From a virus, in the IMG/VR virus record IMGVR_UViG_3300008450_010267, positions 1 to 46,105 of that record: a DNA stretch of 46,105 nt. One strand, written 5' to 3'. The position numbers and the translations under genes are program-made. Shown here piece by piece: positions 14,360 through 34,040 of the stretch (positions are counted from its first letter, which is position 1; each line of letters starts with the position of its first letter). The notes below the pieces were generated by a model. The model ran no database searches. It saw only the letters and a program-made list of their open reading frames with translations, and was not told the DNA's origin.

Positions 14360-15193
14360 TTAACATTTAAATCTAACCTGAATCCAATTTGGGAAATATC
14401 TATCAATCATAAACTGGGCTGCAATTAAAGGAAGTAAAGGTGTGTCGTTAAAATTAGGGAATATATTGGTTTGGGATTTTTTACTTAGAATGGCTGCTGT
14501 TAAACAGAAACTAGAAGGATTTAAGATATTATAATCACATAATGTTATAAGACTAAACTGAACATAGTTTAGATAATTAGCTCTAACAATGTTTCTTCCT
14601 TCTAAAAGTTGTTGTAGTTCTTTAGAGGTATTTACCCATTCAAAATCATCACACATTATTAATATTGTAGCATCAGGTGGTACTAATTTCAATGCTTTTT
14701 CATAATAATCCATATAACTATCCATATAAAAAGAACAAACACCTCTTCTAAAATTTAAAGAAACTAATGGTGCGTTGTTAGTTTGTTGGATTTGTTGAAT
14801 AATATTTTGGGCTTCATCTAGAAAGACTTGTTTAATTTTAAATAATGGTTTAATTTCATCTATCATATCTCCCCAATAAAGAGAACCATAATCAAATCTT
14901 GCATTTAATACATAGTTTTTATATGGACTTAAATTAAATAAATCTTCCTCAATTACAGGAGAAGTACATAATTTAGAAGTGTAAGTATCATAAGGAATAA
15001 ACTGAGAAAACATAGGGAAGGGGGTATCAAAGCACTGAGGGATTAGTCCTTGAAAGCGATGAGGAGCAGTAGATATAGCTACTTCATGTCCTGTTTTTTT
15101 AGCTATAGCACATAAAGTAAAATAGTTAAACATTTGAGAACCTAACATTTCTAGGTGGCTTATTCCATCGTTTGTAATTAAACACTTTGGCAT
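14360..15193 (-). CDS. GT11-like (alpha-1,2-fucosyltransferase family) glycosyltransferase
   Basis: GT11 features visible: an N-terminal LGSQMFNYFTLCAIA (17-31, compare the usual G.LGNQMFQYA), VSLNFRRG with Arg149/Arg150 (compare HVRRGD), MCDDFEWV (compare FSDD..W) and CDYNILNPSSFCLTAAIL at the end. The Arg-Arg-Gly motif binds the GDP-sugar, though the following Asp is missing here (GVCSF). Likely donor GDP-L-fucose or GDP-L-galactose. Length 277 fits. Confidence 0.72.
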   Translation of the reverse strand: MPKCLITNDGISHLEMLGSQMFNYFTLCAIAKKTGHEVAISTAPHRFQGLIPQCFDTPFPMFSQFIPYDTYTSKLCTSPVIEEDLFNLSPYKNYVLNARFDYGSLYWGDMIDEIKPLFKIKQVFLDEAQNIIQQIQQTNNAPLVSLNFRRGVCSFYMDSYMDYYEKALKLVPPDATILIMCDDFEWVNTSKELQQLLEGRNIVRANYLNYVQFSLITLCDYNILNPSSFCLTAAILSKKSQTNIFPNFNDTPLLPLIAAQFMIDRYFPNWIQVRFKC

Positions 15194-15197
15194 GTTT

Positions 15198-15965
15198 TTA
15201 TTTTTTTAATTTATTATATGTTTCTTTAATCCCTTGTTCTAGCCCTATAAATTCAATTCCTAAATTATTAAAAGTACCTATATAAGGTCTATCTGCTCCT
15301 TTATTCACTATTTCTACATCAACCTTATATTCTTCTAATTTATTAATAATACGTGTTATTTTTTCTAAAGTAAGAGATTTACTATAAATACAATCTATTT
15401 CTTTAGGCCCATCATTATTAATATAATATTCTACTATTTTAACTAAATCAGGCATATAGATAAAGTCCATCAATCTGTTTTGATGGATAGTCATAGATTC
15501 TTTATTAATATAGCGTTTAATATTTGCTTTGATAAAACGGGTATCTAATTCGTTTTCATCAAATGCACCAAATATTCTTAAATTGTAATAATTATCTTTA
15601 ATTGATATTGATTTACAAATCACATCCTTACTGTAACCATATGGTTCATCTTTCATATATAACTCAGCACCTGACCCAAAATGAATAAATCTATTGAAAT
15701 GATCTTTATTTGTTAATAAATTATAATACATTATTAAATTGGTATTCATAATATCCCAATCATCTTTATGTAATCTGCTTCCTCCTTTAACAGCACAATG
15801 TAAAATAACATCAAACCATTTATCTGAAAAGTAAGAATTTACTAAAGAGGGGCTAATTAAATCACATTCATTTCTAGTAATAGCAGTCACATCATACTTA
15901 TCTTTTAGAGCAATGTGTAGTGATTTACCTACATATCCATTTGCTCCTGTTATTAGTATTTTCAT
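15198..15965 (-). CDS. Sugar-nucleotide SDR, GDP-fucose-synthase/RmlD-like
   Basis: MKILITGANGYVGKSLH carries GxxGxxG. HCAVKGGSRLHKDDWDIMNT and NLIMYYNLL resemble GDP-L-fucose synthase (H.AAKVGG..N), and YGYSKDV gives Tyr-x-x-x-Lys. The family does epimerisation and/or reduction of 4-keto-6-deoxysugars. Its start overlaps the ThDP-enzyme stop by 4 nt, so the two are probably made together; in the branched-dideoxysugar model below it could supply the final keto-reduction. Confidence 0.78.
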   Translation of the reverse strand: MKILITGANGYVGKSLHIALKDKYDVTAITRNECDLISPSLVNSYFSDKWFDVILHCAVKGGSRLHKDDWDIMNTNLIMYYNLLTNKDHFNRFIHFGSGAELYMKDEPYGYSKDVICKSISIKDNYYNLRIFGAFDENELDTRFIKANIKRYINKESMTIHQNRLMDFIYMPDLVKIVEYYINNDGPKEIDCIYSKSLTLEKITRIINKLEEYKVDVEIVNKGADRPYIGTFNNLGIEFIGLEQGIKETYNKLKK

Positions 15966-17728
15966 AACATTATTTCTTTCATTTCTTCCTTACTAAGATA
16001 AGGAAACATGTTTTCTAATGAGTTAGATATAATTTTACCATCTGCATCTTTAGAAGATTGTACACGAGGAATTAATAGTTGATTTTCAATCATCCTAATT
16101 TCACACAATACTGGTCCTTCTGTATTTAATACAGTATCTATTTCATTTTCCATTTCAATATTATTATTAAACTGAAATGTTTTGAATCCATAAGCTTTAG
16201 CTAACTTAATAAAATTAGGATTACTAATTCCGCTGTTTGGATTTGATCCTATATATTTTCCTTTGAATAAATTATCTTGCATTAATGAAATTGCTAGATA
16301 TCCGTTATTATTAAGTAAAAATATTTTTAAAGGTATTTTATTATGAATTGCTGTCTGCAATTCTTGAATATTCATTTGTATTCCTCCATCTCCTGCAATC
16401 AATATAACATCTTTAGTAGGATCAGCAAGGTAAGCCCCTATAGCTCCTGGTAATCCATATCCCATTGAACAGCAAGCACTTGAAGTAAATAACCTAGCTT
16501 TTCCATTCATTTGTAGTGACTGCATAGTACAAGTATAACTTGTGCCCATGTCTGTTACTATAATATTTTTATTTGTTAGTTTTCTAGATAGTACTTCTGT
16601 AAAATAAAATGAATTTATTCTATTAGTGTTTGCTTTATATTCAGATTGAAACACAGGATATTTTACTTTCCAAGATTGGGTTCTATTAATCCATTCTTTC
16701 CAATTAGGAATATCTTTATCATGTAATAAAGATAACATGTTTGTAAAGAAATTATTTAGATCTTCATTTATGGGATAATCAATCTTAATAGTTGGTTTAT
16801 TTAACTCATTTTCATCTATATCAACCATTATTTTAATTGAATTAGGTGAAAATAAATGAGATTGATAACCAACGTTTGGAATAGACAATCTACTACCTAA
16901 TATTAATAATAAATCAGCATTTTGAACAGCAAAATTAGCAGCACGTTCACCTAACAATCCAAAATTTCCTATAAATAAAGAATCATCATGGTTCATTAAA
17001 TCTTTAGATGTCCATGTTGATATTATAGGTATTTTTAATTTATTTTTTAATGTTTCAAAATAATGTTCTGTTTTAGATAAATGAATACCATTTCCTGTTA
17101 TTATAAGTGGTCGTTTTGAGTGAAATATGATATCAATTATATCTTTAACATTATAATTTATGGTTTTTGGGTTCTTAGGTATTGTAATTTCTTCTGGTTC
17201 TATTAGAGCATTTTGGATATCAAGAGGTATATCTAGCCAAACAGGTCCCATTCTGTTTGTTGTAGCTTCATTATATGCCATAGCAATATGGTAAGCAACA
17301 GTTTTAGGATCTGTTATTTGAACGGCATATTTAGTAATGTTTTTAACCATACTTATAATATCACATTCTTGTACTCCTAGTTGTCTTAATCTAATATTTT
17401 CTAAACTACTCAATGATTGATTTACCGGTACTTGCCCAGAAATAATGATCATTGGAATTGAATCTTGATATGCTCCAACTACTCCCGTAATGGTATTTGT
17501 AGATCCAGGACCATTAGTAACCAAAACACAAGCTGGTTTGTTAGCTATACGAGCATACCCTTCAGCAGCCATAGCGCATGCCTGTTCGTGGTAATTACAT
17601 ATGTAATTGAAATTCCTTTCTGATACTGAATTAAGTAAATGAGCAGCTGCTCCTCCTGATACTGAGAATATAGTATCTATTTCTTTGGATTTTAGGAAAT
17701 CAAATATATAATCTGAAACCTTTATCAT
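15962..17728 (-). CDS. ThDP-dependent enzyme of the acetolactate synthase family (YerE-like candidate)
   Basis: Full-length at 588 residues. NYHEQACAMAAEGYAR (45-60) contains the ThDP-activating Glu48; VTNGPGSTNTITGV follows as in acetolactate synthases; the ThDP/Mg motif is GDGGIQM (446-452) to NNN (473-475). Members condense pyruvate-derived acetaldehyde units with a second carbonyl. In sugar loci the homologue YerE adds a two-carbon branch to a CDP-4-keto-3,6-dideoxyhexose. The RfbH-type enzyme that would supply such a substrate lies 2.5 kb upstream. A plain acetolactate synthase is less likely, as no branched-chain amino-acid genes are present. It overlaps both neighbours by 4 nt. Confidence 0.85.
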   Translation of the reverse strand: MIKVSDYIFDFLKSKEIDTIFSVSGGAAAHLLNSVSERNFNYICNYHEQACAMAAEGYARIANKPACVLVTNGPGSTNTITGVVGAYQDSIPMIIISGQVPVNQSLSSLENIRLRQLGVQECDIISMVKNITKYAVQITDPKTVAYHIAMAYNEATTNRMGPVWLDIPLDIQNALIEPEEITIPKNPKTINYNVKDIIDIIFHSKRPLIITGNGIHLSKTEHYFETLKNKLKIPIISTWTSKDLMNHDDSLFIGNFGLLGERAANFAVQNADLLLILGSRLSIPNVGYQSHLFSPNSIKIMVDIDENELNKPTIKIDYPINEDLNNFFTNMLSLLHDKDIPNWKEWINRTQSWKVKYPVFQSEYKANTNRINSFYFTEVLSRKLTNKNIIVTDMGTSYTCTMQSLQMNGKARLFTSSACCSMGYGLPGAIGAYLADPTKDVILIAGDGGIQMNIQELQTAIHNKIPLKIFLLNNNGYLAISLMQDNLFKGKYIGSNPNSGISNPNFIKLAKAYGFKTFQFNNNIEMENEIDTVLNTEGPVLCEIRMIENQLLIPRVQSSKDADGKIISNSLENMFPYLSKEEMKEIML

Positions 17729-18111
17729 ATTGTGTTTTCTACAAATTTTAATGTATCAATCCAATTTTCAAAACGATACCCATTATCATCAATATATAGC
17801 TCTGCTCTTGGTTTTTCACTAGTAATATTACTAACATAGTTTAATATACCATGTTTATCAAGCCACTCTTTTACTAATTCAACTCCTGTTTTTCCATTTA
17901 CTAATGGACGATCAGGTTTTGCTTTAGCCGTAAAGATTACTATATCATATTTTTTAGATAACTCTTTTATAGCATCTATTGATCCAGGAAGTGGATTACC
18001 ATAACAAGTACCATCTCCCCATCCTTGATAAGCATCGTGTATTACTCCATCAAAATCAATAGCTATAGTATAAGATTGATATTCAAATCCTGGAGGGTAA
18101 AAGTTAGCCAT
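17725..18111 (-). CDS. HAD-family phosphatase-like protein, 128 aa
   Basis: YTIAIDFDGVIHD (14-26) is the HAD motif I with Asp19 and Asp21; VIFTAKAK (59-66) serves as motif II (Thr), KPRAELYIDDNG near 100-111 gives the Lys and acidic motifs III/IV. It has no large cap domain, like small sugar-phosphate or nucleotide phosphatases. In this cassette it may dephosphorylate a sugar-phosphate intermediate. Overlaps of 4 and 8 nt with its neighbours show tight coupling. Confidence 0.8.
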   Translation of the reverse strand: MANFYPPGFEYQSYTIAIDFDGVIHDAYQGWGDGTCYGNPLPGSIDAIKELSKKYDIVIFTAKAKPDRPLVNGKTGVELVKEWLDKHGILNYVSNITSEKPRAELYIDDNGYRFENWIDTLKFVENTI

Positions 18112-18772
18112 TTTTATTAATTGTCATTATTATAGTTTCAGAAATTACTCCATCCAATTGTCGAGATACTTGTTTTATTATCTTAGCAAAACCAACATCT
18201 CCAGGTATGGTTACACAATGAGAAGTTCCATCGATGTTTCTTACTAATCCTCCCTTTAAAAATACAATTAAATCATCATCATGTTTATTGTTGATAATTT
18301 CAATATCATTTATTACTTCTATTTTTAAAGTACATCCCGCAAAATCATGTATTTGGTTTTCTTCTTTTATCCATAGACAGTTATCTCCTTTGGTTTCTTC
18401 AAAAGTACTATCTTCATATGGTTTAGAGGTACGACCATATTGATCATTTAGCCTAACTAAATCGTGTTTGTCTTTTGGTGTTTCTATTTCAAATATGAAT
18501 GCACCTTTTTGACTTATAGCTTTAGTAGAATGAAATAAACCTCTTCGAATCATTACTTTATCTAAAGATTTTAATTCACGTTTATCTGATAAAAACGATA
18601 TTTCTGCTTCACCGTCTAATAGTACTAAACCTGTAGTTTTTTTAGGATGGCAATGCATTGAAGTGCTTTGACCTGGTGATATATATAGAAACCACAGTCC
18701 TACATCTTCATTCTCATAAGCCAAATACTCATATCCCCAAGGTTTTTTTACAATATTAGTTTTATAACTCAT
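18104..18772 (-). CDS. Cupin protein, probable sugar isomerase/epimerase-like, 222 aa
   Basis: KKPWGYEYLAYENEDVGLW (9-27) followed by PGQSTSMHCHPKKTTGLVLL (cupin motif 1 with two His) and IRRGLFHSTKA (motif 2 His) resembles the cupin domain of type II phosphomannose isomerase/GDP-mannose pyrophosphorylase, but no nucleotidyltransferase domain is present. Residues 130-222 may be a second, degenerate cupin half (LIVFLKGGLVRNIDG). Mannose or related sugar-phosphate isomerisation would feed GDP-mannose to the epimerase at 23950-25020. Substrate is inferred. Confidence 0.72.
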   Translation of the reverse strand: MSYKTNIVKKPWGYEYLAYENEDVGLWFLYISPGQSTSMHCHPKKTTGLVLLDGEAEISFLSDKRELKSLDKVMIRRGLFHSTKAISQKGAFIFEIETPKDKHDLVRLNDQYGRTSKPYEDSTFEETKGDNCLWIKEENQIHDFAGCTLKIEVINDIEIINNKHDDDLIVFLKGGLVRNIDGTSHCVTIPGDVGFAKIIKQVSRQLDGVISETIIMTINKNG

Positions 18773-19317
18773 TGTTTATTTCTTTCATTGTGTGTTTGAT
18801 AAGCAATTCTCATCCAATCTCCCATAAAATCATAATGGGGACATGAAATAATATTACCATCTACTACTACAGGACCTCTATCATAAGTAGCACCAGCATT
18901 TTCAATATCAATATCAATTGAATAATATCCAGATATTTTTCTACCTTTCAAGATCTTTGCTGAAATTAAAAGTTGAGCTCCATTACATACAGAGAAAATT
19001 GTTTTATCAGCGGCGTTCCATTCCTGGATAAATTTAAGTACTCCTTTTTCTTGTCTTACTTTTTCAAGTGCTTTAACACCACCTGGTACTAGTAAAATTT
19101 CATATTCATTTAAATATTGCTGTCTTACTGTTTCATCTTCAAATATCGATGTTTCAACATCGCAAGGCATATGGGAACCTAATGAACCCCAAATTTTACC
19201 TATTTTATTAGCCATCAACGTTACTTCGTAGCCATTTTCTTTTAAACTATAATAGGGATAGATCAACTCATGATCCTGATATTTTTCCCAAGTAATAATA
19301 AGTGCTTTTTTTACCAT
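18769..19317 (-). CDS. DJ-1/PfpI family protein
   Basis: The 182-residue sequence has the class I glutaminase-like fold: LLVPGGVKALEKVRQ (75-89) and the nucleophile elbow FSVCNGAQLLISAKIL with Cys111, then LKGRKISGYYSI and VVVDGNIISCPHYD. The family includes glyoxalases, amidases and chaperone-like proteins. Its place among sugar-nucleotide genes is unusual; it may repair or detoxify reactive keto-sugars or alpha-dicarbonyls made by the cassette. That is inference. It overlaps the cupin gene by 4 nt and the dehydratase gene by 7 nt. Confidence 0.82.
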   Translation of the reverse strand: MVKKALIITWEKYQDHELIYPYYSLKENGYEVTLMANKIGKIWGSLGSHMPCDVETSIFEDETVRQQYLNEYEILLVPGGVKALEKVRQEKGVLKFIQEWNAADKTIFSVCNGAQLLISAKILKGRKISGYYSIDIDIENAGATYDRGPVVVDGNIISCPHYDFMGDWMRIAYQTHNERNKQ

Positions 19318-20258
19318 ATGAATTTGTGTTTATAATATTCAATTATGTTTTTTAAAGTATTGTCAAATACTACTTTTGGTTTCCAACCTAATGCTCTTAA
19401 TTTAGAATCATCTAAAGCATAACGAACGTCTTGTCCTGCTCTTGAATAGGATAAGTCAATATATGAATTTACGTCAACTTCTCCAAAATATTCCTTGATC
19501 ACTTTTATAACAGTGTTATAATTTGATTGTTCGAATCCTCCAGCAATGTTATATATTTCGTTTTTAACTCCACTTTCAACGATAGTAATTACTGCTTCTG
19601 CAGTGTCAGCAGCATGTAACCAGTTACGAATTGGTGTTCCATTATTATGAAGAGGAATTTTTTTCCCTAAATGTAGCATCTTACATGCTTTGGGAATTAA
19701 TTTTTCAACATACTGTCCAATACCGTAGTTATTGGTTGGTCTAACAATAACATAAGGTAAACTATATGTTCTACTCCAAGCTAATACTAACATATCAGCA
19801 GCTGCTTTGGTTGCTGAGTATGGGTTTGATGGTTTTAGTAGATCTGTTTCTATATGGGCTCCTTCTTCAATATCACCATATACTTCATCTGTACTAAAGT
19901 GGAGTAATATGGGTGTTTTAGCTGTTTCTTGTCTATAGTTTTTAATTAGTTCAAGTATATTATGAACGCCGTTTATATTAGAATGTACAAATTCATCACT
20001 ATTAGCAATTGAATTACCTACGTGAGTTTCAGCTGCTGTGTTGATAACATAATCACACTCATATAAAAATGTTAGTTCATTGATATCACAATGGACAAAT
20101 GAGAAATTAGGGTATTGTTCGAATTCATCTAATAATTCTTTATTAGCAGCGTATGTCATTTTATCTACACCTTTAACATACCATCCTTTATTTAAACATG
20201 CTCTAGTGACATATGATCCTATAAACCCTAAACAACCTGTTATATATACTATTTTCAT
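19311..20258 (-). CDS. dTDP/CDP-glucose 4,6-dehydratase-like SDR (RmlB-like)
   Basis: MKIVYITGCLGFIGS has GxxGxxG at 8-14. HFSTDEVYGDIEEG (120-133) carries the Thr-Asp-Glu triplet diagnostic of 4,6-dehydratases, YSATK gives Tyr147 and Lys151, and VRPTNNYGIGQYVEKLIP is the RmlB signature. The enzyme converts an NDP-hexose to NDP-4-keto-6-deoxyhexose. By motif it is closer to RmlB (dTDP-glucose) than to RfbG (CDP-glucose). It overlaps the RfbH-type gene by 4 nt, and together they would catalyse consecutive steps. Confidence 0.88.
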   Translation of the reverse strand: MKIVYITGCLGFIGSYVTRACLNKGWYVKGVDKMTYAANKELLDEFEQYPNFSFVHCDINELTFLYECDYVINTAAETHVGNSIANSDEFVHSNINGVHNILELIKNYRQETAKTPILLHFSTDEVYGDIEEGAHIETDLLKPSNPYSATKAAADMLVLAWSRTYSLPYVIVRPTNNYGIGQYVEKLIPKACKMLHLGKKIPLHNNGTPIRNWLHAADTAEAVITIVESGVKNEIYNIAGGFEQSNYNTVIKVIKEYFGEVDVNSYIDLSYSRAGQDVRYALDDSKLRALGWKPKVVFDNTLKNIIEYYKHKFIW

Positions 20259-21568
20259 AATTGGGAAATAAATTTATCTAATATTGTTTCAATGTAATCT
20301 GTTTTTTCCTTATTGATTACAGGTGATGTACCTAAGAAGAATGTATCTGTAGTTACTTTTCTAGCTACCGGGTATTTTTCAATTACTTCTTTAGAATCCA
20401 TCAAGTGTGTATATGCTGGTTGCAACATAATATTGCCTGCAAAATAAGGGCGAGTCTGGATTTTATTTGCTTCTAGGAACTTACATATATCAGCTCGTTT
20501 GAATGGAGCACCGTCTTTAACAGTTATTGGAAATGCAAACCAATCAACATCTGCTCCAGGTTGTGCTTCATGTAAATGGAAATATTGAGAATATTTACTA
20601 AAAGCAGCAAATAAGTTCTTATAATTTTCTTTACGTTTAGCTCCAATCTCAGGTAATTTCTTCATTTGTACCAATCCGATAGAGGCCTGTAATTCAATTG
20701 GTTTTAAGTTATAACCAATTTCTTCATAAACGTATTTGTGATCAAATATTTCGTTTGGAAGCGAAGGTAACCAATTACTGAAACGGCATTGACATGATCC
20801 ATTTTCAAGTAGGTTTTGTTTACCTACACAATAACAACCACGTCCCCATTCTCTAAAACTGCGAATGATACGTTCGTTTTCCATTGTATTTACAGCAACG
20901 AACCCACCTTCACCTGTAGTAATGTGGTGTGCTGGGTAGAATGAGCAACTTGCCATTTCACCAAACGAACCAAGTGGTTTACCTTCAAATGTAGTACCTA
21001 ATGCATCGCAGCAATCCTCTAATAGAATTAATTTATATTTTTCAATTATTTCCATTAAACGATTCATATTAGGTGGATTACCCAATACGTGAGCGAATGT
21101 AATAATTTTAGCATCAGGATTATCAATACACGCTTGTTCTACTTGATCTAAATCAAGGTTAAGCGTTTCTAATTCAATATCAACGAACACAGGTGTGAAT
21201 CCTAACTGGATAATTGGATTAATTGTAGTTGGGAAACCAGCAATTGGAGTAATTACTTTAGTTCCTTTAGGAAAGTTATAACCACGTTTAGAGGTCATAG
21301 CTAACATCATTAATAAGTTAGCACTTGATCCACTATTAACCATCAACCCGTATTTCTTTCCAAATAGCTTAGGAAACTTATTTTCGAATTTAATCGCTTC
21401 AGCTCCTAATACTAACCATTCACCAAGCAGTGTTTTAACAGCTGCTGTGTATTCTTGTGAATCAAAATACGGACCGGCATATTGGACCCAGTCTTTACCT
21501 GCTTCCCATGTCTTTTCAGAATGTTTTTTCTGGATGTAGTCTTCTACTAGTTTTAATATTTCTTGCAT
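20255..21568 (-). CDS. rfbH: NDP-4-keto-6-deoxyglucose 3-dehydrase, RfbH/DdhC type (PMP, Fe-S)
   Basis: A DegT/DnrJ/EryC1/StrS-fold enzyme of exactly the RfbH length (437). Where aminotransferases of this fold have the PLP-binding Lys, this protein has His214 (YPAHHITTGEGG), the mark of PMP-dependent E1 3-dehydrases. Cys187, Cys245 and Cys247 match the first three cysteines of the E1 [2Fe-2S] motif (C-x57-C-x-C), and Cys259/Cys261 follow at slightly longer spacing. E1 removes the 3-hydroxyl of CDP-4-keto-6-deoxyglucose. The partner reductase E3 is not in this window, so a host or distant phage gene would be needed. Confidence 0.88.
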   Translation of the reverse strand: MQEILKLVEDYIQKKHSEKTWEAGKDWVQYAGPYFDSQEYTAAVKTLLGEWLVLGAEAIKFENKFPKLFGKKYGLMVNSGSSANLLMMLAMTSKRGYNFPKGTKVITPIAGFPTTINPIIQLGFTPVFVDIELETLNLDLDQVEQACIDNPDAKIITFAHVLGNPPNMNRLMEIIEKYKLILLEDCCDALGTTFEGKPLGSFGEMASCSFYPAHHITTGEGGFVAVNTMENERIIRSFREWGRGCYCVGKQNLLENGSCQCRFSNWLPSLPNEIFDHKYVYEEIGYNLKPIELQASIGLVQMKKLPEIGAKRKENYKNLFAAFSKYSQYFHLHEAQPGADVDWFAFPITVKDGAPFKRADICKFLEANKIQTRPYFAGNIMLQPAYTHLMDSKEVIEKYPVARKVTTDTFFLGTSPVINKEKTDYIETILDKFISQL

Positions 21569-22471: not shown

Positions 22472-23157
22472 ATACTGTTATTTATTAAGCTTGTATCTTT
22501 GGGTAAAGTTTTTTGCTGTTCTTTAGACATTGTTATAGGTTCTACTTCAATGCCTTTCTTAAGATATAGATCATATAATGACATCCTCTCAGAAGATATA
22601 TGAACTATTTTTTCCTTATTATTAATAATATTATTAACTATTTTTTCTACTATTTCATCCAAAAAATATCTAGAACAATATTGATCAGTAAATACTTTAG
22701 GATATATTTGTCTAATGAAAGGTGCTCTTATAATCTGGTAATCAGATAAAACAGAAACAACATATTCAGCTGCTGCTTTAGTTTTACCATAAACATTAAT
22801 AGGATCTAATCTATCATTTATACTATAATTACCCTTATCTCCACTAAACACATATTCAGAAGAAATATAAATTAGTTTACAATTTAACTCTGAACATACT
22901 TTAGTTAAGTTCATTGTTCCGATAACATTAATGTCTAATGCTTTTTTAATATTTTTTTCACAACCAAATGTGTCAACAAAAGCAGCAGAGTGAATGATGA
23001 TATCTGGGGAGAAATCAGTTATTTTAGTTTTTAGAATGTCAATATCCAATACATCACATTCTTCTTTAGATGGAGAAAGTATTTCATTGTTAATAGATAA
23101 ATATTCTATTAGTTTTTGACCTAAATGTCCACTTCCTCCTGTTATGAATATCTTCAT
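22468..23157 (-). CDS. Sugar-nucleotide reductase, RmlD-like SDR
   Basis: MKIFITGGSGHLGQKLIEYL carries GxxGxxG; ECDVLDID and DIIIHSAAFVDTFGCEKN match RmlD (D..D...PD.VIN.AA.T.VD..E). YISSEYVFSGDKGNYS and NVYGKTKAAAE give the Tyr-x-x-x-Lys. RmlD reduces the 4-keto group of dTDP-4-keto-rhamnose. At 229 residues it is shorter than the usual 280-300, with a reduced substrate domain. It may reduce the keto-sugar made by the cassette. It shares one base with its upstream neighbour (23157). Confidence 0.8.
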   Translation of the reverse strand: MKIFITGGSGHLGQKLIEYLSINNEILSPSKEECDVLDIDILKTKITDFSPDIIIHSAAFVDTFGCEKNIKKALDINVIGTMNLTKVCSELNCKLIYISSEYVFSGDKGNYSINDRLDPINVYGKTKAAAEYVVSVLSDYQIIRAPFIRQIYPKVFTDQYCSRYFLDEIVEKIVNNIINNKEKIVHISSERMSLYDLYLKKGIEVEPITMSKEQQKTLPKDTSLINNSI

Positions 23158-23966
23158 TAAACTAAATTATTAAGCTTAAAAACTTCTGTTATTTTATTGC
23201 AGATGTTTTGTTCATAATCAACGTATTGAAGAGCTAATTTATAATTTTCATTTATGATATCCAAACGGTCTGTATAGTACTTTTCATCTAGTTTATTTAT
23301 TTTACGTATTAAGTCGTCTACGCTAGTAAAAGTAATTATTCCTTCTTCATTAAACATTTCATGAATATCTGAACACCCCCAATATACTGGGATTGTTTTT
23401 TGGAGAAAACAATCTAATATTTTTTCTGTGAAGTATCCATTATGTTGGGTATTTTCTATTGCCACCCCAAACATAGAATATCCAAATACTTCTTCTTTAC
23501 CTAATTTAGCTTTAGCTATATCATGTCTATCTCCATATACATCATAAAATTTTTTAGGTATTTTAATTTCATTTTGTCTATTTAAGAGTTCATGTCTTAA
23601 AGAATGACCGTATGTTTTTAGCAAATTTCCTCTTAAATGTGCTAGTTCAAACTTTTTCTCTTTATCTGTGGTATATTGATCTGGAGTGAACCAGGTATGT
23701 CCAAAATGAAGTAAAAGAGCATTTTCACAATTATTCAATACTTTATCATCCCATGTTAATATAATATTAAAGGAATGTTGGTTTTGAATAGCCCAATCGT
23801 GTATTCCAAAATATTCATTTGGTTCTTGCAATACTAATATATTAATGGAAGAAAAATCCCCAGGTTCAGGAACAGTATCTACAAATAAAGAAAAATCAAG
23901 ATGTTTTAAATGATCAAGTTTATCTTCAAATGTTTTTTTGTCGAAATGGTTAGCTTTTACTTTCAT
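23157..23966 (-). CDS. GT10-like (alpha-1,3/4-fucosyltransferase family) glycosyltransferase
   Basis: The C-terminal half carries the GT10 signature: MFGVAIENTQHNGYFTEKIL (165-184) and TIPVYWGCSDIHEMF (191-205), which bind the GDP of GDP-fucose. HFGHTWFTPDQY and AHLRGNLLK lie ahead as in bacterial members. Length 269 is on the short side. Likely donor GDP-L-fucose or another GDP-L-sugar. It overlaps the GDP-mannose 3,5-epimerase gene by 17 nt, linking donor supply and transfer. Confidence 0.82.
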   Translation of the reverse strand: MKVKANHFDKKTFEDKLDHLKHLDFSLFVDTVPEPGDFSSINILVLQEPNEYFGIHDWAIQNQHSFNIILTWDDKVLNNCENALLLHFGHTWFTPDQYTTDKEKKFELAHLRGNLLKTYGHSLRHELLNRQNEIKIPKKFYDVYGDRHDIAKAKLGKEEVFGYSMFGVAIENTQHNGYFTEKILDCFLQKTIPVYWGCSDIHEMFNEEGIITFTSVDDLIRKINKLDEKYYTDRLDIINENYKLALQYVDYEQNICNKITEVFKLNNLV

Positions 23967-32423: not shown

Positions 32424-34040
32424 TTACATTCCGAAGTCTGCCATTCCAAGATCATCTTGCTTTTTCTTTTCAGTTGGTTTTTCGTGAATGACACATTCAG
32501 TCATAAGTAATGTAACTGCAGCGGCAGCAGCATTTTCAAGTGCTGAGCGTACTACTTTGGTTGGATCGATAATACCTGATTCAAAGGCATCAACTGTTTT
32601 TTCACCAGCAATATCAGGAACCACATTTTTGGTATTTTTAAGTAATACACTCCATTCATTAGCATCTTCACCAGCATTAGTTAATATTTGAGTAAATGGA
32701 ATTGAACATGCTTGGAATATAATTTTACCACCTTTACCAAAGTCATCATTTAATCTATTGTTAATAGAATTTCTAGCTTGGAGTAATGCTACACCAGCAC
32801 CAGGTAAGATACCTTCATCAAGTGCTGCTTTTGTTGCTTGTAAAGCATCATCGAGGCGGTCTTTCTTTTCTTTCATTTCAATTTCAGTACCACCACCTAC
32901 ATTGATGATAGCTACACCCCCAACCATTTTAGCTAAGCGATCTTGCAAACGCTCAATTTCATATGGTGATGTTGAAGCATCAATCTGTGTTTTTAATTCT
33001 GTAATACGAGCTTCAATCTTATCAGCATCACCTCTACCATCAACGATAGTAGTTGTTTCTTTACCTACAGTAATAGTACGAGCTTGTCCAAACCAATCTT
33101 TATTGAATTTATCCAAACGCATACCCTTCTGAGATGATACTACAGAACCACCTGTTAATGCAGCGATGTCTTCTAAAATTAATGTTCGGCGATCTCCGAA
33201 ATCAGGTGCTTTAACAGCAGCTACTTTAAGAGCACCTCTCATTTTGTTTACAATCAATGTAGCAAGTGCTTCACCATCAATATCTTCAGCTACAATAAAG
33301 AGTGATTTATTCTGCTGAGATACTGATTCGAGAATTGGGAGCAAATCTTTTACTTGGGTAATTCGACCATCTACAATCAACAATAAAGGTTCATCCAATA
33401 CTGCTGTCATTGTATTGTTGTCTGTTACCATGTAAGGTGATTTGTAACCACGATCAAACTGCATACCCTCAACAATCTCAAGTGATGTTTCACCAGTACG
33501 AGACTCTTCGACTGTAACGACTCCATCTCTACCTACTTTTTCAAGTGCTGTAGCTACCAGGTTACCAATTTCTTCATCTCCATTAGCTGATAGAGTAGCA
33601 ATTTGTTTAATTTGCTTTTCATCAGCAATAGGTGTAGACATTGTTTTTAATTCAGCTACTACTTGCTTAACAGCCTCTTCAATACCACGTTTTACTTGAG
33701 TGGCGTTTGTTGAAGCATAAGATGTTGCTTGTAATGCTTGAGAGGCAATAGCGTGAGCCAACACAGTTGATGTTGTAGTACCATCACCAGCAGCATCTAC
33801 TGTTTTTTGAGCTGCTTGTTTAATAACAGTAGCAGCCATGTTTTCAATTGGATCTTCCAATACAATTGTTTTAGCCACAGTAACACCATCTTTAGTTGAT
33901 GCTACTTGCCCATGTTCTTTTTCAATCAATACGTTACGGCCATAAGGACCCATTGTAACAGAAACGGCTTTATTGACCTTGTCAATACCGGATTGAAGCT
34001 TTTCTTTAGCTTCCCTATCGAATTTAATTATTTTACTCAT
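32424..34040 (-). CDS. groEL: Chaperonin GroEL (Hsp60), phage-encoded
   Basis: Full-length, 538 residues. VTMGPYGRNVLIEKEHGQVA, STKDGVTVAKTI and AGDGTTTSTVL give the ATP-binding site, including Asp of DGTTT. GGVAIINVGGGTEIEMKEKK and RLDDALQATKAA contain the catalytic Asp equivalent to D398 of E. coli. The apical domain is complete. The C-terminus ends DLGMADFGM and lacks the Gly-Met repeats of bacterial GroEL. It is 3 nt downstream of groES, so the full folding machine is phage-made. The likely role is folding of large phage structural proteins. Confidence 0.97.
   Translation of the reverse strand: MSKIIKFDREAKEKLQSGIDKVNKAVSVTMGPYGRNVLIEKEHGQVASTKDGVTVAKTIVLEDPIENMAATVIKQAAQKTVDAAGDGTTTSTVLAHAIASQALQATSYASTNATQVKRGIEEAVKQVVAELKTMSTPIADEKQIKQIATLSANGDEEIGNLVATALEKVGRDGVVTVEESRTGETSLEIVEGMQFDRGYKSPYMVTDNNTMTAVLDEPLLLIVDGRITQVKDLLPILESVSQQNKSLFIVAEDIDGEALATLIVNKMRGALKVAAVKAPDFGDRRTLILEDIAALTGGSVVSSQKGMRLDKFNKDWFGQARTITVGKETTTIVDGRGDADKIEARITELKTQIDASTSPYEIERLQDRLAKMVGGVAIINVGGGTEIEMKEKKDRLDDALQATKAALDEGILPGAGVALLQARNSINNRLNDDFGKGGKIIFQACSIPFTQILTNAGEDANEWSVLLKNTKNVVPDIAGEKTVDAFESGIIDPTKVVRSALENAAAAAVTLLMTECVIHEKPTEKKKQDDLGMADFGM

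Follow-up and report, generated by a model that had tools for sequence, protein, structure and literature searches.

The window analysed here is a linear virus record of 46,105 bases (the whole of IMG/VR record IMGVR_UViG_3300008450_010267), and it comes from a large uncultured phage. Our subject is an operon on its minus strand that, judging from its predicted enzymes, very probably builds a rare carbon-branched sugar, and that includes a thiamine diphosphate (ThDP)-dependent enzyme of a type that is in most cases wrongly labelled an amino-acid (acetolactate) enzyme. The core genes run in the order RfbH, RmlB, PfpI, cupin, HAD, ThDP and short-chain dehydrogenase/reductase (SDR), with neighbours overlapping pairwise by 4-8 bases, so that the stretch from RfbH to SDR is very likely a single transcript. 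All features named in a preliminary description of this DNA were found in the window at the positions it gave, including an RmlB-like dehydratase overlapping an RfbH-type dehydrase (by 4 bases) and a full-length ThDP enzyme downstream together with an SDR reductase (SDRy), whose gene overlaps that of the ThDP enzyme by another 4 bases; between RmlB and ThDP we found three further genes (PfpI, cupin and HAD) that the description had not mentioned.

20255-21568, minus strand: RfbH/E1-type pyridoxamine phosphate (PMP)-dependent nucleoside diphosphate (NDP)-4-keto-6-deoxyhexose 3-dehydrase with a predicted [2Fe-2S] cluster, 437 amino acids (NCBIfam PRK15407, 3bcx, cysteine columns)
19311-20258, minus strand: RmlB-like NDP-glucose 4,6-dehydratase of the deoxythymidine or uridine diphosphate (dTDP/UDP) type, 315 amino acids (STDEVYG Asp-Glu couple, TIGR01181, 2hun, tree)
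18769-19317, minus strand: DJ-1/PfpI-family protein, putative donor-supply or accessory enzyme (PF01965)
18104-18772, minus strand: cupin protein (weak Cupin_2 match, under the cut-off)
17725-18111, minus strand: HAD/NT5C-like small phosphatase-like protein (PF06941, under the cut-off)
15962-17728, minus strand: YerE/JanthE-like ThDP-dependent carboligase, predicted C-branching enzyme, 588 amino acids (8rph, trees, AlphaFold model, motifs)
15198-15965, minus strand: short SDR (SDRy), a predicted ketoreductase that would act either following the ThDP enzyme or alongside it (overlap with the ThDP gene, relatives, model)

The best PDB match of the ThDP enzyme was JanthE (8rph, 365 bits, versus 243 bits for acetohydroxyacid synthase, AHAS), a YerE-like enzyme that couples 2-oxo acids to ketones (PMC12188165, PMC12247030). 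Two maximum-likelihood trees placed the window enzyme, JanthE and RfbH-linked bacterial enzymes in one clade (SH-aLRT 100) that excludes AHAS, Gcl and PoxB, and housekeeping AHAS-type copies fell outside it even when they came from genomes also having a YerE-like copy; the bacterial sample was picked by similarity to the query and is hence biased, which leaves the exclusion of AHAS unaffected. The catalytic and cofactor motifs of ThDP enzymes are present (Glu48, GDG446-448, Asn473-474), and the AlphaFold model (pLDDT 92) returned JanthE for all of its top six PDB matches (TM 0.93-0.95), as expected of a DC fold. Three residues tested by mutation in JanthE, V121, P293 and Y297, are identical in the window (V119, P284 and Y288), and the other two differ (K567 is R555, and Y268 is L259). 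On these comparisons the enzyme is YerE-like and no acetolactate synthase, and it is predicted to accept a ketone and to form a tertiary alcohol.

The gene set recurs, with swappable parts, in dozens of uncultured phages. Among 74 non-redundant viral ThDP loci, Fe-S-type RfbH was found in 56, RmlB in 59, SDRy in 62 and RfbF in none; the corresponding sample of 80 bacterial ThDP loci held Fe-S-type RfbH in 34, a cytidine diphosphate (CDP)-type dehydratase in 34 and RfbF in 17, with a complete bacterial set (E3, RfbF, RfbG, RfbH, acetaldehyde dehydrogenase, aldolase, SDR and ThDP) in Thiomicrorhabdus. The linkage of ThDP to RfbH, RmlB and SDRy holds across divergent phage ThDP clades, with or without PfpI/cupin. 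In a third sample, of 80 viral RfbH loci, 32 had a ThDP gene within ~8 kb, and 7 of 16 further records carried a full-length ThDP copy elsewhere on the contig, with one more partial copy at a contig end. We found no relative of the ThDP enzyme in cultured phages, and matches in the phage collection were at most 32% identical; their annotation, where given, names acetolactate synthase or another housekeeping ThDP enzyme, many lie in bacterial-looking fragments, and a plasmid search returned mostly housekeeping AHAS. Cyanophage RN05-S, in which RfbH forms part of a sugar cluster, did not appear among the matches of the ThDP search. In other phages (L009:10004-11770, L010, L011 and L013) RfbH, SDRy and RmlB are linked to a second ThDP lineage, which is AHAS-like.

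The dehydratase carries the motifs STDEVYG and YSATK, fitting the [ST]DE...Yx3K triad of RmlB, and in a published motif table [ST]DE marks the dTDP/UDP-glucose dehydratases and [ST]DK those acting on CDP-glucose (PMC8987622). It scored 304 bits with the dTDP model TIGR01181 versus 76 bits with the CDP-type TIGR02622, and it matched the structure 2hun with 242 bits; the enzyme could also use a UDP sugar. Among dehydratases collected around ThDP genes, with a score cut-off applied for the Asp-Glu type, the couple was Asp-Glu in 74 of 74 from phages and Asp-Lys in 29 of 29 from bacterial loci. A motif count made regardless of scores found Asp-Glu 52 times and Asp-Lys not once in the 74 viral loci, against 1 and 34 in the 80 bacterial loci, and Asp-Lys was likewise absent from the 80 phage RfbH loci, a sample that partly overlaps the first. 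A tree also parts the phage dehydratases, together with E. coli RmlB, from the bacterial Asp-Lys enzymes. This split indicates that the phage nucleotide route differs from that of the bacterial counterparts, and neither a CDP-type dehydratase nor RfbF lay near any phage ThDP gene sampled; the yersiniose-like scheme of the preliminary description was thus not borne out as regards a CDP-type first step.

The second enzyme scored above the NCBIfam RfbH equivalog cut-off (PRK15407, 461 versus 423 bits), and its best PDB match was E1 of the CDP-3,6-dideoxyhexose pathway (3bcx, 339 bits, versus 184 for ColD). His214-His215 align with the HH of E1, and to the catalytic His and Cys187, Cys245 and Cys247 already recognised we can add a fourth cysteine, Cys259, all four aligning with the E1 cysteines. 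Every Fe-S-type relative collected, from phages and from bacteria, keeps the four cysteines, and the HH motif is likewise constant, with the exception of a single bacterial row that has Gln for the second His. Counted from the sequence, the cysteine spacing is C-X57-C-X-C-X11-C, and in the alignment the last spacing is shorter in E1.

The window does lack E3, as first reported, with neither PF00175 (NAD-binding family) nor PF00111 (ferredoxin family) matched. No match passed the PF00175 cut-off in any of 21 phage records, of which several span 117-197 kb (the window and eight relatives had no match at all, and 12 further records none over the cut-off), and PF00111 was missing from the nine records tested (window and eight relatives). 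E3 was found near the ThDP gene in 0 of the 74 viral loci and probably in only 2 of the 80 bacterial loci. Absence of E3 is the rule in these loci, a general feature rather than a missing piece. A host reductase in its place is plausible, because the E1 relative SpnQ does without E3 and is supplied with electrons by ferredoxin or flavodoxin reductases (PMC8987622). In eight viral loci RfbH is substituted by an E1-related His-type protein without the cluster cysteines, which is possibly E3-independent; for one such protein (L103), E1 (200 bits) and ColD (129 bits) come closest among solved structures. Cysteine-less 3-dehydrase-like proteins of this kind, with the His kept, are found at L103:4333-5472, L125:2689-3837 and L147:1480-2640.

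The ThDP enzyme can be replaced as well. In four phage RfbH operons a split (two-gene) transketolase lies in the ThDP slot, exactly between RmlB and an SDR:

L203, 10255-11356: split transketolase pair (Transketolase_N and Transket_pyr domains checked on this one)
L228, 10255-11353: split transketolase pair
L267, 10257-11352: split transketolase pair
L272, 5499-6616: split transketolase pair

Transketolases have been proposed to attach hydroxyacetyl branches to keto sugars. That two unrelated ThDP classes share one slot is our strongest argument that the slot serves carboligation onto the RmlB/RfbH sugar, and the replacements of RfbH and of ThDP would each preserve the chemical step. One phage operon (L154:6864-10706) holds a split transketolase, a YerE-like ThDP gene and PanB together. 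The model of SDRy (pLDDT 96) resembles guanosine diphosphate (GDP)-4-keto-sugar reductases, and its target may be the branch ketone or C4.

Beside the ThDP gene stand what are probably cassettes for making its 2-oxo-acid donor. Across the 74 viral loci these were PfpI/cupin in 20, NeuB in 18, PanB in 12, an HpcH/HpaI aldolase in 8 and an HMGL-type aldolase in 6, with PanB plus NeuB in 3, PanB plus split transketolase in 1 and no cassette in 6. Exactly one donor class was present in 65 of the 74 and more than one in 3 (shuffles gave a mean of 18 and a minimum of 10, a number that is indicative only, as shuffling ignores kinship). The classes other than PfpI/cupin belong to families that form 2-oxo acids. 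RfbH-anchored loci carried a donor-class gene in 19 of 32 cases with ThDP versus 4 of 48 without (Fisher p 1.5e-6, kinship ignored), and a pair of 4-hydroxy-2-oxovalerate aldolase and acetaldehyde dehydrogenase was seen in 10 of the viral RfbH loci, each of which also has ThDP, with both L212 enzymes above their equivalog cut-offs. The YerE-like enzyme ErwE is known to favour 4-hydroxy-2-oxo acids (PMC12247030). On a 145-row FastTree tree the donor class switches at least 21 times, and residues near the active site vary with it: V119/P284/M394 in the PfpI/cupin class, a V/P/M pattern also shown by JanthE, D119/R284 in the bacterial NeuB class and V119/A394/Q419 in the PanB class. PanB (ketopantoate hydroxymethyltransferase) lies by ThDP at L115:9773-10699 and in 19 related viral loci; it scores above its equivalog cut-off, and a vitamin B5 role there seems unlikely. 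For NeuB, a role in a nonulosonic acid pathway of its own is also conceivable.

In the window the donor role would fall to PfpI-cupin-HAD. PfpI and cupin adjoin ThDP in window-type phage loci and in some bacteria, in 26 viral loci a gene related to the window HAD lies no more than two or three genes away from ThDP, and a functional link between cupin and ThDP is supported by their fusion in several bacterial and phage relatives (L015-L018, L021, L112, L123). Several of the fusion loci have radical-SAM-like or heptose-like genes nearby and no RfbH, and would belong to another pathway. The two-carbon branch proposed in the preliminary description is not supported as written, the ThDP gene adjoining one of several mutually exclusive donor cassettes.

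Taken together, we consider it fairly probable that the operon encodes a phage pathway to a dTDP-linked, C4-branched 3,6-dideoxyhexose; from the observed sequence identities, clade membership, active-site motifs and conserved linkage we infer its substrates and products, the role of the PfpI cassette and the host electron donor. RmlB would form NDP-4-keto-6-deoxyglucose, most likely from host dTDP-glucose, and RfbH would remove the C3 hydroxyl with PMP and its [2Fe-2S] cluster to give dTDP-4-keto-3,6-dideoxyglucose, drawing electrons from a host ferredoxin or flavodoxin reductase that stands in for E3. The ThDP enzyme would then decarboxylate a 2-oxo acid and add the acyl unit at C4, yielding the tertiary alcohol, and SDRy would reduce the remaining ketone. 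The 2-oxo-acid donor would probably be supplied or processed by PfpI-cupin-HAD, with pyruvate as the default otherwise, and the finished sugar would be used by the phage glycosyltransferases around the operon.

Several observations weigh against this pathway. JanthE is the sole characterised anchor in our trees and sits on a long branch, and the RmlB-like enzyme falls below the TIGR01181 equivalog cut-off (304 versus 365 bits). SDRy is found, too, in RfbH/RmlB loci whose records lack a YerE-like gene (of those checked, three have the split transketolase), so that its target could be C4 instead of the branch, and the closest bacterial ThDP relatives (L015-L018, L021) have PfpI and/or fused cupin with no RfbH within 8 kb, so that enzymes of this ThDP subtype can work in pathways other than a 3,6-dideoxy one. 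The product of RmlB and RfbH might accordingly be an ordinary 3,6-dideoxyhexose once SDRy has reduced it, with ThDP, PfpI and cupin engaged in an unrelated reaction such as branching another keto sugar, and cupin-ThDP fusions, some with PfpI, do occur without RfbH in bacteria and phages alike. We regard this as unlikely, given that the ThDP linkage spans divergent clades regardless of PfpI/cupin, and that four loci without a YerE-like gene have the split transketolase at the same place.

The nearest solved relative of the window RfbH, E1, uses a CDP sugar, and we know of no dTDP sugar that serves as an RfbH substrate; both points also count against a dTDP route, and the former would suit a CDP-linked pathway of the Yersinia kind, in which the dehydratase would accept CDP-glucose from the host. 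Such a route nevertheless appears quite improbable in view of the consistent Asp-Glu couple in phages, set against Asp-Lys beside bacterial relatives, and the lack of RfbF near the phage ThDP genes sampled. Least probable of all is that the ThDP enzyme is a true acetolactate synthase, an auxiliary metabolic gene (AMG) for branched-chain amino acids. Generic annotation would point that way, TIGR00118 being its best NCBIfam match, and phage ilvB has been counted among the valine-pathway AMGs (PMC8226683), but the 365 bits scored lie well under the TIGR00118 cut-off of 538. The tree, the bit scores and the structure led us to reject this identity, and the phylogenetic comparison proposed at the outset did not place the enzyme inside the acetolactate synthases; it is YerE-like and goes with the RfbH/RmlB genes, not with the valine pathway. 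The window enzyme, like JanthE, has Pro where three reference AHAS all carry Arg, and Tyr477 in place of Leu; the Arg column alone is not decisive and was dropped as a clean AHAS marker, Arg being retained in many bacterial YerE-like enzymes, and a literature search on the role of the AHAS Arg yielded nothing usable.

Beyond the dTDP-linked pathway in the window, we tentatively suggest a modular scheme of phage sugar branching, in which a conserved dTDP-4-keto-3,6-dideoxyhexose core is combined with interchangeable ThDP enzymes and interchangeable donor enzymes to give each phage a differently branched sugar. Its ThDP parts might comprise the YerE-like enzyme, the second AHAS-like lineage and the split transketolase, and its donor parts PanB, NeuB, the aldolases and a new PfpI-cupin-HAD route; the prevalence of a single donor class per locus and the variation of pocket residues between donor classes would fit this scheme.

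The wider window encodes T4-like replication genes (DNA polymerase and clamp loader), and the nearest relative of its DNA polymerase is that of Microcystis phage Mel-JY01 (35%). Minus-strand genes between 10.7 and 28.9 kb are mostly for nucleotide sugars and glycosyltransferases, and GT10 and GT11 fucosyltransferase-type glycosyltransferases flank the operon (23157-23966 and 14360-15193). The closest relative (L002) has a GDP-mannose dehydratase and epimerase at the flank position, so the neighbouring sugar genes vary. The phage also encodes a GroEL-type chaperonin (32424-34040). The thymidylate synthase/dCMP hydroxymethylase family, found in some relatives, was considered as a clue to sugar-modified DNA and set aside, as the closest relative (170 kb) had no match to it.

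If the pathway is correct, its products would to our knowledge probably be the first dTDP-linked C-branched 3,6-dideoxy sugars outside antibiotics. Phages would then constitute a large untapped set of ketone-accepting carboligases, and the donor-cassette set makes substrate prediction for YerE-like enzymes directly testable. Viruses were counted among the as yet unexplored sources of such enzymes in a 2025 review, and our literature search for phage yersiniose yielded nothing usable. Phage "acetolactate synthase" AMGs could likewise be sugar genes, and claims of phage control over valine synthesis would therefore need rechecking.

Among known systems, the operon shares a 4,6-dehydratase, an E1-type 3-dehydrase, a YerE-like carboligase and a reductase with the yersiniose A pathway of Yersinia pseudotuberculosis (RfbF/RfbG/E1/E3, YerE, YerF), but differs in its dTDP/UDP-type dehydratase, the lack of a nucleotidyltransferase and of E3, the additional PfpI-cupin-HAD genes and its location in a phage genome. 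JanthE of Janthinobacterium sp. HH01 (8rph/8rpi/8rpj) is the best match in both sequence and structure and shares the pocket residues V121, P293 and Y297, although identity is only ~34% and the window has the canonical GDG where JanthE has CDG. ErwE of Pectobacterium, in the erwiniose pathway, is similar in being a YerE-like enzyme whose substrate is a 4-keto-3,6-dideoxy sugar; an aldolase and a dehydrogenase that should produce a donor of the ErwE type are present in other phages of our set and not in the window. Finally, the split-gene transketolases proposed for the branched sugars of miharamycin and amipurimycin resemble the two-gene transketolase in the ThDP slot of four related phage operons, which are found in phages instead of Streptomyces, whereas the window itself has the YerE-like enzyme and no split transketolase.

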